Positions 16,197 through 21,974 of a stretch of 64,000 nucleotides of DNA are shown piece by piece. This DNA is from an uncultured Pelagibacteraceae bacterium. Lineage in GTDB: Bacteria > Pseudomonadota > Alphaproteobacteria > Pelagibacterales > Pelagibacteraceae. The number at the start of each line of letters is the position of its first letter. The stretch's first letter is position 1. The notes under the pieces were generated by a model. It searched no databases. It was not told the origin of the DNA and saw only the letters and a list, made by a program, of their open reading frames with translations. The stretch covers positions 1 through 64,000 of the forward strand of contig CACBIY010000001.1 of assembly GCA_902539445.1 (NCBI GenBank). Direction: 5' to 3'. Position numbers and translations under genes: made by a program.

Positions 16197-16282
16197 TGGT
16201 GCCCTCGGCCAGACTCGAACTGGCACTCCGCAAGCGGCAAGGATTTTAAGTCCTTTGTGTCTACCAATTTCACCACGAGGGC
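16197..16282 (-). tRNA. tRNA-Leu (anticodon UAA)
   Basis: Type II tRNA of 86 nt: acceptor GCCCTCG/CGAGGGC, anticodon loop CTTAAAA (UAA), long variable arm with GCCGCTTGCGG, T loop TTCGAGT, encoded CCA at 16197-16199. From its anticodon loop through about 65 bp upstream of its 5' end, this sequence is repeated at 17219-17322, making it the anchor of the 975-bp unit described in the findings. Confidence 0.97.
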
Positions 16283-16347
16283 ATTAATGAATTTCATGAG
16301 TGTTTATGCTAATATTTATAATTGAACAAGTGGAATAAGTAAAATTT
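16244..16347. repeat. Direct repeat, copy A (tRNA-Leu 5' half plus upstream flank)
   Basis: Matches 17219-17322 at an offset of 975 bp. The first 68 bp (16244-16311) are identical; over 104 bp I count three differences (16312, 16331, 16332). It begins in the tRNA-Leu anticodon loop and extends past the 5' end of the gene into the AT-rich upstream region. Confidence 0.95.
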
Positions 16348-16367
16348 ATTCAATCTTATATTTCTAT

Positions 16368-16386
16368 GTGCTGGTCTTGTACTGGT
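16368..16386. repeat. Tandem octamer pair GTGCTGGT/GTACTGGT, 11-bp period
   Basis: GTGCTGGT at 16368-16375 and GTACTGGT at 16379-16386 are separated by three bases, so they repeat at one helical turn. The same design occurs at 17073-17091 on the other side of the beta-barrel gene. Helically phased short direct repeats near a tRNA junction resemble arm-type binding sites of tyrosine recombinases, but could also be regulator sites. Confidence 0.8.
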
Positions 16387-16443
16387 TATCCTATGAAATC
16401 CTGCGTATATTTTTAAGGAATAGTTATCTAATTAAAAAATAAT

Positions 16444-17028
16444 TTAAAATTGAATTGCGTATCTTAGAGTTAGTGCAGAAATATCACCATCTTCTATTTT
16501 ATAATATTCATAGCCAAATTCCATCTGCTCAGATCCAAGACCAATACCAAAAAATGGGTCTGTACCCGAACCTAGCGCATCTTTTGAGCTACCTAAACTA
16601 GCTTTAACTGTTGATGAAAAATCCCAACTGTGCATACCACCTTTAACATAAAAGCCTTCTTGACTAAATTTTACCGCACCAGTTACACCATCGCCCGTTA
16701 TATCTGTTGTTACACTTTCAGTTGGTCCTGTTAATTTGGTGTTTATTGTTAAAGTTCCATAATTTACATAACCACCTTCAATAGAAAAATTTGGAGCAAT
16801 TTGAGCACCAAAACCAATATCAAATCCTACACCTGTATTGTCAGTGGAACTCGTAGATGAACTAAAACCTAGAGCAACTAATGATGTATTAATTTCTTGA
16901 AGATCACTTGTTTCAATTCCATAATTAAATATTTTAGCCCCACCATACATGTATGTTTCAGCTGAATAAGCTTTAATTTGAGTTGATAAAATTATAAATG
17001 TGAAAACAAGAAATTTTTTTAAATTCAT
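16444..17028 (-). CDS. Outer-membrane beta-barrel protein, OmpA/OmpW-like porin fold
   Basis: 194 residues. A signal peptide (residues 1-23, cleavage after AYSA) is followed by alternating amphipathic strands typical of an eight-stranded barrel: YMYGGAKIF, GVGFDIGFGAQI, FSIEGGYVNYG, EGFYVKGGMHSWDF, PFFGIGLG, MEFGYEYYKI. The C-terminus is LTLRYAIQF, the terminal-aromatic signature recognised by the BAM machinery. Function is unknown; such small barrels serve as adhesins, minor channels or phage receptors. It is the only gene between the two tRNA-Leu copies, and both flanks are unusually long for this genome. Confidence 0.85.
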   Translation of the reverse strand: MNLKKFLVFTFIILSTQIKAYSAETYMYGGAKIFNYGIETSDLQEINTSLVALGFSSSTSSTDNTGVGFDIGFGAQIAPNFSIEGGYVNYGTLTINTKLTGPTESVTTDITGDGVTGAVKFSQEGFYVKGGMHSWDFSSTVKASLGSSKDALGSGTDPFFGIGLGSEQMEFGYEYYKIEDGDISALTLRYAIQF

Positions 17029-17072
17029 AATTAATTATTCTCATAATTAATGATTTAAGTCTATCAAAAAAT

Positions 17073-17091
17073 GTGCTGGTTTTGTGCTGGT
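17073..17091. repeat. Tandem octamer pair GTGCTGGT x2, 11-bp period
   Basis: GTGCTGGT at 17073-17080 and 17084-17091, separated by TTT. Same orientation and spacing as the pair at 16368-16386. It also sits 45-63 bp upstream of the beta-barrel start codon, so an alternative role as a binding site for a regulator of that gene is possible. Confidence 0.8.
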
Positions 17092-17171
17092 TTTTACAAA
17101 TTAATTAACACTTATTTTCTAATCTAAATTGAAAGTTAAATTAAAGTTAAATGATTTTATGGGATGTTTTA

Positions 17172-17195
17172 GACTACCTTGGACTACTATGGACT
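17172..17195. repeat. Three GACT(AC) units at 10-bp period
   Basis: GACTACCTTG, GACTACTATG and GACTGAC begin at 17172, 17182 and 17192. Their phasing of one helical turn, immediately next to the tRNA-Leu remnant, again suggests a protein-binding array. Confidence 0.6.
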
Positions 17196-17210
17196 GACTT
17201 TAACTTCTAT

Positions 17211-17257
17211 CCCTCGGCTTTTAAGTCCTTTGTGTCTACCAATTTCACCACGAGGGC
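17211..17257 (-). pseudogene. tRNA-Leu(UAA) remnant with internal deletion
   Basis: On the minus strand, 17257 to 17219 is identical to the 5' half of the intact tRNA-Leu, from the acceptor through the D arm to the anticodon loop. It is followed directly by GCCGAGGG (17218-17211), which matches the 3' acceptor region of the intact gene (16209-16202). The 34 nt between (3' anticodon stem, variable arm, T arm) are absent, and there is no CCA. It cannot fold as a normal tRNA. Confidence 0.8.
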
Positions 17258-17322
17258 ATTAATGAATTTCATGAGTGTTTATGCTATTATTTATAATTGA
17301 ACAAGATGAATAAGTAAAATTT
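17219..17322. repeat. Direct repeat, copy B (tRNA-Leu 5' half plus upstream flank)
   Basis: Second copy of 16244-16347. Because the tRNA promoter region is included, transcription started here would run leftwards (minus strand) through the remnant towards the beta-barrel gene. Confidence 0.95.
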
Positions 17323-17347
17323 TTTTATCTCTTTAGAAATGTTGAAG

Positions 17348-18574
17348 CTAAGATATTATCTTTAGTTTAGGTAAAGGAAATATTAGTTTTGTACCAGAAT
17401 TTCTCATTTTGGTTTCTCTTTGCACGATTTCATTTTTAAAATGCCATGGTAAAACAAAATAATAATTAGGTTTTAGCTGTCTTGATTTTTTCTCTGATAT
17501 TATCTGAATGTATGTACCTGGAGTGAATTTATTGTATTTAAGTGGATTTCGCTCAGCAATATAATTTAAATGTTTCCTATTAATACCAAAATATTGAAGT
17601 AAAACATTTCCTTTAGTCGACGCTCCGTAGCCATGAACTGTCTTTTGAGTTTTTACAATCTTATTTAAAAGATACATTATTTTCTTTTTTATAAGATTAA
17701 TTTGCTTAAAAAATCTTAAAAAAGTCTCTTTTTTTTCTAGTCGAAATTTTTTCTCTTCCTTTAAAATTTTTGAAATTTTTTTAACTTTTGTATTATATTT
17801 TGAATTATCGTGTGTAATAAAATATCTGGTGCTTCCGCCATTTATCTTGCTATTTTTAATATCAAACACTCTAAGTTTATTCTTTTTCATCAATTCGATA
17901 ATTATCTTAGAAGAATAATATTCTAGGTGTTCGTGACAGATAGTATCAAATAACGAATACTTCAATATTGATAAAAGATCAGCGTGTTCTAAAATAAAAA
18001 CTCCATCATCATGTAAAATTTTTTTAACATCTTTTATAAAAGAATTTGGATCTTTTAGATCATAAAACATTGAAAGAGCTGTAATAATTTTATATTTTTT
18101 ATCTAAATTATATTTTCTTAAATTTTTGATAGAAAAAAAATTAGAAATCTTATAGTTCACTTTTTTATAAAATTTCTTATATTTATTCACTAATGGATCA
18201 ATACCAACAGTAATAAATTTATTTCCATAATTATTTAATAAAGTTCCATCATTACTTGCTATATCTAAAATATAATCTTTTTGTTTAGGTTTTGACATTT
18301 TTATAGCTTCCTTAGCAACTAATTTTACATGATTGCTCATAGTTGAATTAATTCCTGTCCTATAACCATAATCTTTACCATATAAAAAATTTGGATTAAA
18401 ATTTCTGTCTAGTTGAACAAGTTTACATTTATTGCATAATATTAAATTAATATAATCTTTCGCGACTTTATGATTTAAAGAATTTGGAAATTTTCCAGTA
18501 AAAGATTGTTTTCCCAAACTAAAAAGTTTTGAAAATTTTTTGGAAGAGCATATTCTACATTTATTAATTTTCAT
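17348..18574 (-). CDS. Class I SAM-dependent C-methyltransferase of the sugar (NDP-hexose) type
   Basis: 408 residues in the three-part layout of this family. There is an N-terminal zinc-binding domain (C6xxC9 and C47xxC50), a central Rossmann methyltransferase with ILDIASNDGTLL near residue 105, and a C-terminal domain with VHGYGASTKGNVLLQYF, as in deoxysugar C-methyltransferases. The likely role is methylation of a nucleotide sugar or surface-glycan residue. It is the first gene on the far side of the tRNA-Leu remnant, co-oriented with the FkbM, GT2 and membrane genes. Confidence 0.75.
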   Translation of the reverse strand: MKINKCRICSSKKFSKLFSLGKQSFTGKFPNSLNHKVAKDYINLILCNKCKLVQLDRNFNPNFLYGKDYGYRTGINSTMSNHVKLVAKEAIKMSKPKQKDYILDIASNDGTLLNNYGNKFITVGIDPLVNKYKKFYKKVNYKISNFFSIKNLRKYNLDKKYKIITALSMFYDLKDPNSFIKDVKKILHDDGVFILEHADLLSILKYSLFDTICHEHLEYYSSKIIIELMKKNKLRVFDIKNSKINGGSTRYFITHDNSKYNTKVKKISKILKEEKKFRLEKKETFLRFFKQINLIKKKIMYLLNKIVKTQKTVHGYGASTKGNVLLQYFGINRKHLNYIAERNPLKYNKFTPGTYIQIISEKKSRQLKPNYYFVLPWHFKNEIVQRETKMRNSGTKLIFPLPKLKIIS

Positions 18575-18644
18575 AAGATATTAGTTTATAGTTCTTTACC
18601 TTAAAATGTAAATAACAGCTTTCAATCAATAAATAGAACAATTT

Positions 18645-20480
18645 CTAACATTTAGAATTATTATTTAATTTTGAAAAAACAATAATTTTTTTATTAGAAA
18701 TTTTTTCACACTTTGAAATATCCTCGGGAAAAATATTATCAAAAAATTCATTTCTATGTAGAAAAATTAAATTTGGTTTAAATTCTTCATCAATTTTACT
18801 TGTTTCAAATTTTCTTTTTAATCTGTTAATTTCATTTAGTGGAATTGCTATAGATTGGACTATGAGTGGGCTTGTTCTTTTTATCATACTCATCTCCTCG
18901 GGACTAAAATCTTCAGAATTTTTGTAAGTTTGAAGTTTACTTGCAGAATATCTTCCCCAAAAAAATAATTTTGTATTTTGGTTATTAATTCGCCATGACG
19001 AAAGTCTATTTTCAAAAAACTTTGAAAAATCTTCGTAATCTAATTTTAAAAATTTGAAACTATCAATTAAGTCATCTTCAATCATTGAGTGAGTTTTTGG
19101 AACAAGTTGACCACTTAAAGGTTTAATTTCCTCAATATCGTTTAGAATTGCCCACACCATTAACTTTGAGTCAAACGTCAGTAAACTAATATTCTTATTT
19201 TCCTTAATCAAATTTGTTACATTTTTAAATCCTTCTCTATAAGAAATATAATCTTCATCTTGATTTTTTTGACCAAATTTTTTGTATAAATCAAAATTAT
19301 AAACACATACAATTAAAAAAATACAAATGTAATTTAAATAATCTAATCTAAATTTTAACACTGATTTACTTTTCAAAAACGATAATGAAAAAATTAATAA
19401 ATATAAGAATGCACAAATAACTATTAAATTTGTAAAATGATAATTAAGACCAGTTTTATTAGATATTAAAATGAAAAAAAAAGGTGAAATCAAAGATGAA
19501 ATAAATAAGAAGAATAATATGTTTATTTTTTCATAATTAATAACTTTAAACTTATTTGCATATATATTTAAAATTGTAATAGTTGAAATTAACAAAATAC
19601 CCTTAAAACTAAATAACTTAGAAATTAAATAATTAATCAAAATGATTTTTTTTTCTATCGTTAAATCAACAACATACATTCTTTCCATATAATTAGGATC
19701 TGAGGTAAAAATAAAATAAATAAAGGGTACAGATAAAAAACTAAAAATAATTATAAAAAAAAAGAAGTTTTTAAAATTTTTATAATTAAAAATCTCAAAT
19801 AATTTTAATTTGTAAAATACAAAAATTGTAAATGTTAAAATTTCAATTACAAAAAAATAATAAAAAGATGAAAGTGAAAAAATTAAAATCAAAGCTAAAA
19901 GGGAAATATTTTTTTTTAGAAATAATTTCTCTTTATCCATTGAAAACAAGAAAAGTATAAATAAATAAAAAAAAATATTTACAATTAAAGGCCTTGGAAA
20001 TCTTAAACTGTATATATCAGTTAATGAAACTAAATATGGCAAAGAATCAACTTCAAAAATATTTAGTAATGTTGGAATAAAGAATAAAAATATTGCCAAT
20101 AAAATACTTGAAGAGTTTGAAAAATTTAATTTTTTAAAAATTTTACTGATTACAAAAAGAAAAAGGAAAATAAATATAAATTCTAAAAATAAAATTGAAT
20201 AACTTCCAAAAAGTTTAAATAAAATTGCAGGGAATAATACAGCATAAAATGGAGTTGGAATATTTCTTAAATCCTCAATGGAACTATCAAAAGACTCATT
20301 AAAATTTAAATTTAAAAGTGCTTCCGTGTAAACATAATAAAAATATCCATCACCAGGAGTATCAAAAATTATTTTTAATGAGATATCGTCCTCAAAAAAA
20401 AAGTATGAAAAAATCCATTTAAAAATGAAAATTAAAAAAGTGCAAAATAAAATAATATTTATGTGTTTAATATTTTGCAT
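18645..20480 (-). CDS. Large multi-spanning membrane protein, possibly a GT-C glycosyltransferase
   Basis: 611 residues; I do not recognise a named family. Residues about 10-400 contain some 10-12 hydrophobic segments, and an early loop (residues 35-85) is acidic and aromatic, with FEDDISLKIIFDTPGDGYFYYVY, reminiscent of the first periplasmic loop of GT-C enzymes. The last 200 residues are soluble (DDLIDSFKFLKLDYEDFSKFF). It starts by a TAATG overlap with the FkbM methyltransferase, so the two are probably made together. A glycan-assembly role is inferred only from context. Confidence 0.6.
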   Translation of the reverse strand: MQNIKHINIILFCTFLIFIFKWIFSYFFFEDDISLKIIFDTPGDGYFYYVYTEALLNLNFNESFDSSIEDLRNIPTPFYAVLFPAILFKLFGSYSILFLEFIFIFLFLFVISKIFKKLNFSNSSSILLAIFLFFIPTLLNIFEVDSLPYLVSLTDIYSLRFPRPLIVNIFFYLFILFLFSMDKEKLFLKKNISLLALILIFSLSSFYYFFVIEILTFTIFVFYKLKLFEIFNYKNFKNFFFFIIIFSFLSVPFIYFIFTSDPNYMERMYVVDLTIEKKIILINYLISKLFSFKGILLISTITILNIYANKFKVINYEKINILFFLFISSLISPFFFILISNKTGLNYHFTNLIVICAFLYLLIFSLSFLKSKSVLKFRLDYLNYICIFLIVCVYNFDLYKKFGQKNQDEDYISYREGFKNVTNLIKENKNISLLTFDSKLMVWAILNDIEEIKPLSGQLVPKTHSMIEDDLIDSFKFLKLDYEDFSKFFENRLSSWRINNQNTKLFFWGRYSASKLQTYKNSEDFSPEEMSMIKRTSPLIVQSIAIPLNEINRLKRKFETSKIDEEFKPNLIFLHRNEFFDNIFPEDISKCEKISNKKIIVFSKLNNNSKC

Positions 20481-21262
20481 TAAATTATTAATTCTTTTTT
20501 AATGTGCTCTTTCTGTAAAAAGTATTTATTTAGTGCATTGGATTTTTTTTTTTTTGTAAATTTTTTTTGACCTATCGAGTAAAAAAAACCCTCATAATTA
20601 AATCTTTTTAGTATACTGCCAATACGTTTTTCATCCTTGTTCATTTCTACAAGAAGAACAGGTTTATCTTTTTTTATAGTTTTAATTAATCCTTTGATAA
20701 TTGATAATTCAAAACCATTGGTATCAATTTTAATTAAATTTATTTTTTTTTTGAATAATCCAATCTTTTTAATAGTTAGAACACTACTTGCTATAGATAA
20801 ATTGCTTCTAAATTTAAAATCTAATAAAAAATGATCCATCAATTTTTTGTCATAATGAGCATAAGAAATTATGTCATAATCTTTATTTAAAAAATTATAT
20901 CTTGGAAAATATATTTTTTTTTGGATATTTCTATTCCCAATAGCGTACGGTTTAATAATAACGTTTCTTTGATTCATTCTTTTTAAAATTTTTAAAAAAT
21001 ATTCATTGGGTTCGTAACAATATATTTTTCCTACGATTAGATTATTATTGAAAAATTTTGATGCAATACCATCACTTGCTCCAACATCTATAATATTTAT
21101 TTTTTCTTTATTAATATTTAAAATTTTTAATCCATCAAAATCTTTTTCAAAAATATTTGTGAATTTTATCAATTTTCTAAAGATTATATAAACTGCAGGA
21201 TGAGCACGTACGATCTTTTCTAAAACAGAAAAAATACCCTCATGAGTTTCGGATGATCTCAT
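20480..21262 (-). CDS. FkbM-family SAM-dependent methyltransferase
   Basis: 260 residues. Motif I is INIIDVGASDGIASKFF (near 55-70), followed by KIYCYEPNEYF and the late LIKIDTNGFELSIIKG and KPVLLVEMN segments that define FkbM methyltransferases. These usually O-methylate sugars or small molecules, often in surface polysaccharide clusters. It lies four bases after the GT2 stop and overlaps the next gene by one base. Confidence 0.85.
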   Translation of the reverse strand: MRSSETHEGIFSVLEKIVRAHPAVYIIFRKLIKFTNIFEKDFDGLKILNINKEKINIIDVGASDGIASKFFNNNLIVGKIYCYEPNEYFLKILKRMNQRNVIIKPYAIGNRNIQKKIYFPRYNFLNKDYDIISYAHYDKKLMDHFLLDFKFRSNLSIASSVLTIKKIGLFKKKINLIKIDTNGFELSIIKGLIKTIKKDKPVLLVEMNKDEKRIGSILKRFNYEGFFYSIGQKKFTKKKKSNALNKYFLQKEHIKKELII

Positions 21263-21266
21263 CTAT

Positions 21267-21974
21267 TTATTTTAAGACTTTTCTTTGAAAAAACATTTTT
21301 AACAAGTAGAAAAATGAATTGATAATATGTTTGAATTGCATTTTAGATTTACCAAGTTTTCTATAAATTAATCTTACAGGTAGTTCGTAAATACTATATT
21401 TCTCTAACTTTATTAAATATGTTATCTCCCAAAAAAAAGCATAATCATTATTTTTAGATTGAGAAAATATTTCTAAAGGTATTTTGTTAGTCATAAAACA
21501 TCTATATGCACCTGAAGCATCATAAGATAAACCTAAAAATAATTTAATCAAAAAATGACGTGTATATGTAATTATTTTTCTCTCAATTGGCCAATCCTCA
21601 ATTAGATTTAATTTCTTGAACCTACTTGTTATTACATAATCATATTCATGAGCCTTTTTAATCATTGATTTGAAATATTTAGGATCATGAGTTCCATCAG
21701 CATCCATTGTTATAATTAAATCATACTTATTTTTATAAGCATACTTAATCGCATCTTTATGAGCAGAGCCTATCCCTTTTTTGGTATTTCTAAAAATAAA
21801 TTTAACGTTTTTATTCTTGTTACTCAGTTTTTTGATAATTAGTCTTGATTTATCTGTTGAGTTATCATCAACAAAAACTATATCTAATTTGATTTTAGTA
21901 TTTAGTATCTTTTTATATATTTTATGAATATTGTTTTCTTCATTTAATGTTGGGATTATAAGACATAGCTTCAT
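21267..21974 (-). CDS. Glycosyltransferase family 2, dolichol/polyprenyl-phosphate mannose synthase-like
   Basis: 235 residues, GT-A fold. It has LIIPTLNEENNI at the N-terminus, VFVDDNSTDKS (near 35), the metal-binding DADGTHDP (near 91), then TSRF, and a C-terminal RKLGKSKMQFKHI typical of DPM1-like enzymes. No membrane anchor domain is attached. It would make polyprenyl-phosphate-linked sugar, a donor usable by GT-C enzymes such as the one at 14-15.4 kb. A 30-bp spacer separates it from the divergent membrane gene. Confidence 0.85.
   Translation of the reverse strand: MKLCLIIPTLNEENNIHKIYKKILNTKIKLDIVFVDDNSTDKSRLIIKKLSNKNKNVKFIFRNTKKGIGSAHKDAIKYAYKNKYDLIITMDADGTHDPKYFKSMIKKAHEYDYVITSRFKKLNLIEDWPIERKIITYTRHFLIKLFLGLSYDASGAYRCFMTNKIPLEIFSQSKNNDYAFFWEITYLIKLEKYSIYELPVRLIYRKLGKSKMQFKHIINSFFYLLKMFFQRKVLK

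Follow-up and report, generated by a model that had tools for sequence, protein, structure and literature searches.

A 975-bp unit beside the tRNA-Leu(UAA) gene of an uncultured Pelagibacteraceae bacterium is, in our judgement, likely to be an integrated, non-autonomous gene cassette that has no integrase of its own and is moved by the integrase of another element. The unit lies in a contig stretch of 64,000 nucleotides (the window), and units like it probably make up a SAR11 cassette family stacked at a single tRNA and moved by integrases that recognize matching repeats at the cassette ends. Read from its sequence, the unit comprises an attachment core, element arms, paired repeats and an intact, co-oriented cargo gene, it holds no related integrase, and this arrangement recurs elsewhere.

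A half tRNA-Leu and an intact tRNA-Leu frame the unit

The unit runs in order through a core of half a tRNA-Leu, three AGTC repeats, a 9-nt paired repeat and a beta-barrel-like gene, followed by the paired repeat again, a region of the kind upstream of a tRNA and the restored tRNA (Table 1). ARAGORN confirmed the intact tRNA-Leu that a preliminary description of this DNA had placed at one end, and the near-identical copies it had reported at a 975-bp offset, identical over 68 nt and differing at three positions in about 104 nt, were seen again by eye. The two copies form a 110-nt direct repeat (16241-16350 versus 17216-17325, 95% identical), within which the 38-nt core, CCCTCG...CTTAAAA, shows no differences. 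No further core copy with up to 2 mismatches was found in the window's assembly (1.10 Mb, 92% complete).

Table 1. Features of the window unit, in window coordinates
Feature	Position	Strand	Remark
Intact tRNA-Leu(UAA)	16197..16282	(-)	ARAGORN
Attachment core, right junction, within the intact tRNA	16244..16281	(-)	38/38 identical to the other copy
P arm, putative element-borne tRNA upstream region	16283..16350	(-)	Type common to most intact copies examined
P-side paired arm repeat AACCAGTACAAGACCAGCACA, address ACCAGCACA	16367..16387	(-)	One unit with one mismatch
Cargo, 194-aa outer-membrane beta-barrel-like protein	16444..17028	(-)	Pfam OMP_b-brl, below cut-off
P'-side paired arm repeat AACCAGCACAAAACCAGCACA	17072..17092	(-)	
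AGTC arm repeat, three tandem units with a 10-nt period, GTCAGTCCATAGTAGTCCAAGGTAGTC	17169..17198	(-)	
GCCGAGGG, start of the element arm adjoining the core	17211..17218	(-)	Preliminary description: retained acceptor end
Attachment core, left junction, half tRNA-Leu	17219..17256	(-)	Identity to the other core copy
tRNA upstream region, host-side or of an older element	17257..17335	(-)	Now before half tRNA and cargo

The second copy had been described as an internally deleted tRNA that keeps its 5' half, loses 34 nt and then retains eight acceptor bases. The 5' half is indeed kept, but the supposed acceptor bases are the opening of a recurring arm, GCCGAGGGATAGAAGTTAAAGTCAGTCCATAGTAGTCCAAGG, which begins with GCCGAGGG on the minus strand. 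Slightly changed versions of this arm follow half copies in other SAR11 genomes, and a 20-nt piece of it (at most 1 mismatch) gave 19 matches in 17 of 201 genomes, every one exactly 58 nt past a core start, and we therefore reject the internally deleted tRNA. Identity between the window copies extends as far as the anticodon loop's 3' end and no further, so that no deletion is needed; this end would be the expected place of strand exchange inside a tRNA. Within the intact tRNA, the 5' half would then derive from the cassette and the 3' half from the host. GCCGAGGG is also complementary to the CCCTCG of the core, matches the tRNA acceptor end and is kept by many class A arms (see below); an RNA hairpin between CCCTCG and GCCGAGGG was not better than shuffles (z -0.71).

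The preliminary description had also offered a duplication of the tRNA locus followed by decay. A tandem duplication with a later internal deletion would account for the roughly 70 nt upstream of the tRNA that are common to both copies; however, a recurring arm and not tRNA sequence comes after the half copy, other genomes hold other cargo between like ends, some relatives have no second copy in the stretch compared, and all 138 intervals described below begin with a half copy. We regard this origin as scarcely credible.

The tRNA-Leu 5' half is a recurrent attachment site

The unusual attachment-site layout raised in the preliminary description was borne out, as the 5' half of tRNA-Leu(UAA) is the attachment core in viral contigs and in a pelagiphage. 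The 38-nt core was present in 23 IMG/VR contigs, 21 of which have the 5' half only and two an intact tRNA, and in 2 of 50,697 phage records, one being the isolate pelagiphage HTVC105P, where it lies 85 nt past the end of the integrase gene. Among 399 same-genus genomes, many of them incomplete, the core (at most 2 mismatches) occurred in 279, and about 110 had two or more by hand count. Contrary to the outcome that was to speak against an attachment site, the same unit is not found in all relatives and the repeat does occur in phage; an empty site with the same left-hand neighbor was also looked for and not found.

Regions were sampled in two rounds, sixty first and 55 later, with L199 and L200 left uncounted, and the window plus 113 loci gave 114 loci in the final core count (exact limit 8 mismatches). 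These contain 251 core copies, all in one orientation with 0 opposite, and 138 intervals between cores (72 in the first set, 66 in the second). The intervals end at an intact tRNA in 105 of 138 cases and have a median length of 2.5 kb; 113 measure at most 4.5 kb, and some long ones may be composites. Arm-class pairing, address counts, cassette-pair alignments and the comparison of L150 with L177 were done on an earlier element set (57 + 55, 113 in all), for which a best-match search had missed some imperfect cores.

Cargo is mostly co-oriented with the tRNA

The longest ORF points along the tRNA in 130 of the 136 intervals that have one (p 2e-31), and ORFs of at least 150 aa number 278 in the tRNA direction and 42 opposite. 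By clustering, cargo is mostly, not wholly, unrelated between intervals. Annotation of 59 hand-chosen proteins, covering most first-set elements and leaving out the integrase elements, yielded restriction-modification, caspase, MORN, trypsin, autotransporter and ion channel assignments among the matches listed (Pfam and PADLOC). Three intervals of exactly 2,177 bp (L091, 11535-13712; L107, 3420-5597; L197, 1042-3219) have their longest ORF against the tRNA, unlike nearly all others. One of two further cassettes (L128:4042-9345 and L096:403-5572) has eleven related tandem ORFs, two of them short, and the other six; these are mostly about 175 aa, and a pilin-like methylation motif stands at the N-terminus of a relative in L097. 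Two intervals are free of cargo, of 275 bp in L193 (cores 3566 and 3841) and 267 bp in L114 (12209-12476, reversed), and contain arms but just one repeat pair; they look as though cargo had been lost between direct repeat blocks.

The window interval has one ORF of at least 50 aa, the beta-barrel, which matches Pfam OMP_b-brl at E 2e-5 and 25.3 bits (cut-off 28.7) and by eye shows a C-terminal Phe and a signal-like N-terminus. This cargo is rare, with one other match, a weak one, among 201 genomes including its own; a single-sequence structure prediction had a mean pLDDT of 30 and was unusable. Left of the cassette (17348-21974) lie genes that by eye encode two methyltransferases, the first of C-methyltransferase type and the second of FkbM type, and a probable glycosyltransferase. 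The first of these, the left-hand methyltransferase, has relatives in 42 of 150 genomes, the window's own included (E 1e-40), and in the contigs compared by eye none stood beside the tRNA except in G053 (L256). There a 45% identical relative is found some 2.2 kb downstream of a decayed half core that has 2 mismatches and lacks a recognizable arm, and this gene may itself be former cargo.

Paired arm repeats tend to match within elements

Elements carry two tandem 9-nt repeats with a period of 11, once about 130 nt past the core and a second time some 85 nt ahead of the following core. The 9-nt repeat varies between elements while tending to match at both ends of one element. The zones for scoring this pairing were chosen on viewing the first set, tested there and applied unchanged to the second, with the two intervals under 500 nt left out. 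The within-element score was 17.30/20 in the discovery set (n=71) against 15.44 for the best of 20,000 permutations, and 17.89/20 in the replicate (n=65) against a best permutation of 15.78. Scores of at least 17 were reached by 50 of 71 and 51 of 65 intervals, compared to 14.5% and 17.3% of mismatched pairs, leaving 21 and 14 intervals below that value. Arm class A alone (54 elements) scored 18.57 versus 16.57, and the differences were marginal for class B (16 elements after removal of near-duplicates; 18.50 versus 18.31) and class C (15; 17.73 versus 17.67). Joint inheritance of the two ends could also give rise to pairing.

The window's address, ACCAGCACA, is present at both ends (at most 1 mismatch) in twelve intervals, the window's among them, and three of the twelve count equally for ACCAGTACC. 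A further arm class, with TAGTGTAGTTC repeats, was seen in L104, L117, L168 and L179, where the tRNA upstream region differs if an intact copy is visible; no integrase with this address turned up in the present analysis.

Integrase elements at the same site carry matching addresses

A related tyrosine integrase is encoded in three of the 138 intervals and in 6 of the 23 viral contigs; a primase-like gene accompanies it in all nine (9/9). These integrase-primase elements span 7.8-10.2 kb at the tRNA-Leu site, and the 5' end of the integrase gene contains a repeat pair wherever that region was visible. One such element in another SAR11 cell (L132) carries the window's address, with a clean ACCAGCACA pair on the P side and single units in the gene, and another (L209) has ACCAGTACC as a clean pair on the P side and irregularly in the gene. 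No related integrase was found in the window's unit or genome, and the unit itself holds no helper. The family was present in 6 of 399 genomes, at the tRNA-Leu site in three and without an adjoining core in three; of these off-site genes, two have an internal stop and one is fragmented and also has a stop. Given how common cassettes are, other helpers must exist.

The presence of integrase-primase elements at the same site, including L033, a contig of 7.8 kb whose terminal repeat measures 98 nt, is what would be expected if the window unit were all that is left of a full prophage or satellite after decay had removed its integrase and most of its genes. The shortness of most intervals argues against such decay, as does the near-identity of some integrase-free intervals in distant genomes, and the sole cargo ORF between the window's att sites gave no PHROGs match at E 0.001. 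We consider a remnant very unlikely.

We compared the integrases in eight pairs, five close and three distant, with domain limits set after the alignment had been seen. Among the close pairs, whose middle and catalytic parts are 93-99% identical, residues 28-150 are 97% identical in the pair that shares an address and 78, 78, 59 and 55% identical in the pairs with different addresses, of which both 78% values share L048 and so leave three independent contrasts. The distant pairs are uninformative or contrary to this pattern; L122 and L052, with different addresses, are 72% identical in the N-terminal, 48% in the middle and 69% in the catalytic part, which does not fit. Searched against solved structures, the integrase profile gave no match at E 0.01, so we turned to fold comparison. 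In a structural model (mean pLDDT 79, pTM 0.43), residues 30-144 aligned with the arm-type binding domain of the HAI7 integrase (Z 9.2, rmsd 2.4, 87 aligned) and with the HPI integrase domain (TM 0.77 by target length, Foldseek E 0.11). The catalytic domain was all that Pfam recognized, in 8 of 12 integrases; it assigned no arm-binding family to any of them. The predicted N-terminal domain of the helper integrases thus matches an arm-binding fold (3ju0 and 3jtz), and with repeats at both ends the helper elements have, by sequence and predicted fold, a lambda-type att arrangement. From this pattern we infer that the arm repeat is the integrase's address.

Cassettes appear to move between genomes

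Fourteen interval pairs aligned over more than 70% of their length. Five of these (L088/L101, L088/L153, L101/L153, L150/L177 and L191/L193) are 96-99% identical, whereas their NAD-kinase side is only 78-84% identical; two more are 92% identical with flanks at 77-82%, and the remaining seven (65-83%) are no closer than their flanks. As judged from these alignments, cassettes have recently been exchanged between genomes. L150 and L177 have 3 differences across an interior of about 2,370 bases and 30 in their two ends, with one repeat pair mosaic, and by this comparison look like a cassette that changed its address. No excised or circular cassette form was seen.

A cassette with functional ends could instead move only when an adjacent integrase element excises together with it. 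By sequence, the window unit retains attL and attR and has no integration or transfer genes, tandem arrays are common, and in G280 an integrase element stands in line with several integrase-free intervals, all of which would suit such mobilization in cis. The occurrence of the integrase family in just three of 138 intervals speaks against this explanation, as does the different array position of the cassette in four of the five closest pairs, and we think it unlikely, though better placed than decay of a prophage. We favor an integrase that acts in trans on the cassette.

The region upstream of the tRNA may also travel with the element. We compared 133 distinct upstream regions of intact copies, among which multi-copy loci are overrepresented. 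A single type accounts for 110, 89 of these 110 contain the GAGATAAA block of the P arm, and 87 of the 133 have a tandem repeat (at least 8 of 9), with 1.15 expected after shuffling. For the 43 that lack a further core upstream within the available stretch, the corresponding figures are 32, 21 and 17, and conservation of the type even there suggests that the region is often element-derived. Its position, orientation and conservation suggest that it is a promoter, whose displaced copy would drive the cargo. A sigma-70 scan found no excess (7 versus 7.7 expected) and did not separate the upstream regions from background; overall, the promoter and terminator scan was uninformative.

Proposed mechanism

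Under the proposed mechanism, a tyrosine integrase from another element would bind the half-tRNA core together with the paired arm repeats of 9 nt, and would recombine this core with the 5' half of tRNA-Leu(UAA); strand exchange, and so the crossover, would be expected within the anticodon loop. The cassette would supply the tRNA with a replacement promoter, and the displaced tRNA promoter would read into the cargo. More tentatively, somewhat short of an even chance in our estimation, the cassettes may form a distributed, integron-like SAR11 system, in which integrase-free cassettes of one or a few genes bear a swappable arm-repeat address for recognition by the N-terminal domain of integrases carried on satellites, and change helper by exchanging ends. 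Each insertion would then bring a new tRNA promoter and place its cargo behind the old one, so that arrays could grow at one tRNA without harm.

A cassette site that is common and compact and has a readable address would make the gain of defense and surface genes in SAR11 directly testable, the address would let sequence predict which integrase moves which gene, and the elements offer natural variants for studying how integrase arm-binding domains read DNA.

Comparison with known systems

Integron cassettes form arrays of small, co-oriented cassettes without an integrase of their own, and the SAR11 cassettes share these traits; in contrast, their boundaries consist of half tRNAs and arm repeats, that of the window being the 5' half of tRNA-Leu and not attC. 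Tycheposons, said to have been described by Hackl in 2023, are reportedly tRNA-linked marine elements with a tyrosine recombinase, as are VEIMEs. The helper elements resemble both in being tRNA-linked integrase-primase elements of 7.8-10.2 kb, whereas the window unit has no tyrosine recombinase and at 975 bp falls below the 4-200 kbp quoted for tycheposons in the part of PMC10872708 consulted; VEIMEs are named in the corresponding part of PMC10187409.

The layout matches that of additive islands, in which small cassettes sit at tRNAs and a segment of the tRNA, directly repeated, marks them, as found here. In the excerpts available, such islands are described as flexible islands with gene cassettes at tRNA genes of Ca. 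Actinomarinales (PMC7771536) and as cassette islands in Methylophilaceae whose repeat consists of the final 20 bp of tRNA-Lys (PMC10872708), and those excerpts mention neither paired arm addresses nor a matching integrase. The islands at ssrA in Dehalococcoides are likewise tandem at one essential RNA gene and partly without a recombinase, 15 of them lacking an integration module and being discussed as possibly cis-mobilizable, but according to the same kind of excerpt they use the 3' end of ssrA and a Ccr-like recombinase (PMC3146451). The attP of T7-like cyanophages, given in the cited portion of PMC8776855 as the first half of tRNA-Leu, is a comparable 5'-half core of about 39 bp, though it belongs to phage genomes of other hosts and not to cargo cassettes. 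Cassettes at tRNAs, integrase-free islands and 5'-half attP sites are therefore each separately in print in the portions of these sources cited. In the open-licence literature searched, which included PMC12416821, PMC6811365, PMC3861242, PMC11898729 and PMC10187409, we found no description of paired, swappable addresses on integrase-free cassettes or of the SAR11 tRNA-Leu site, and integrase-free cassettes with paired addresses at this site look to be a new form of a known kind of element.
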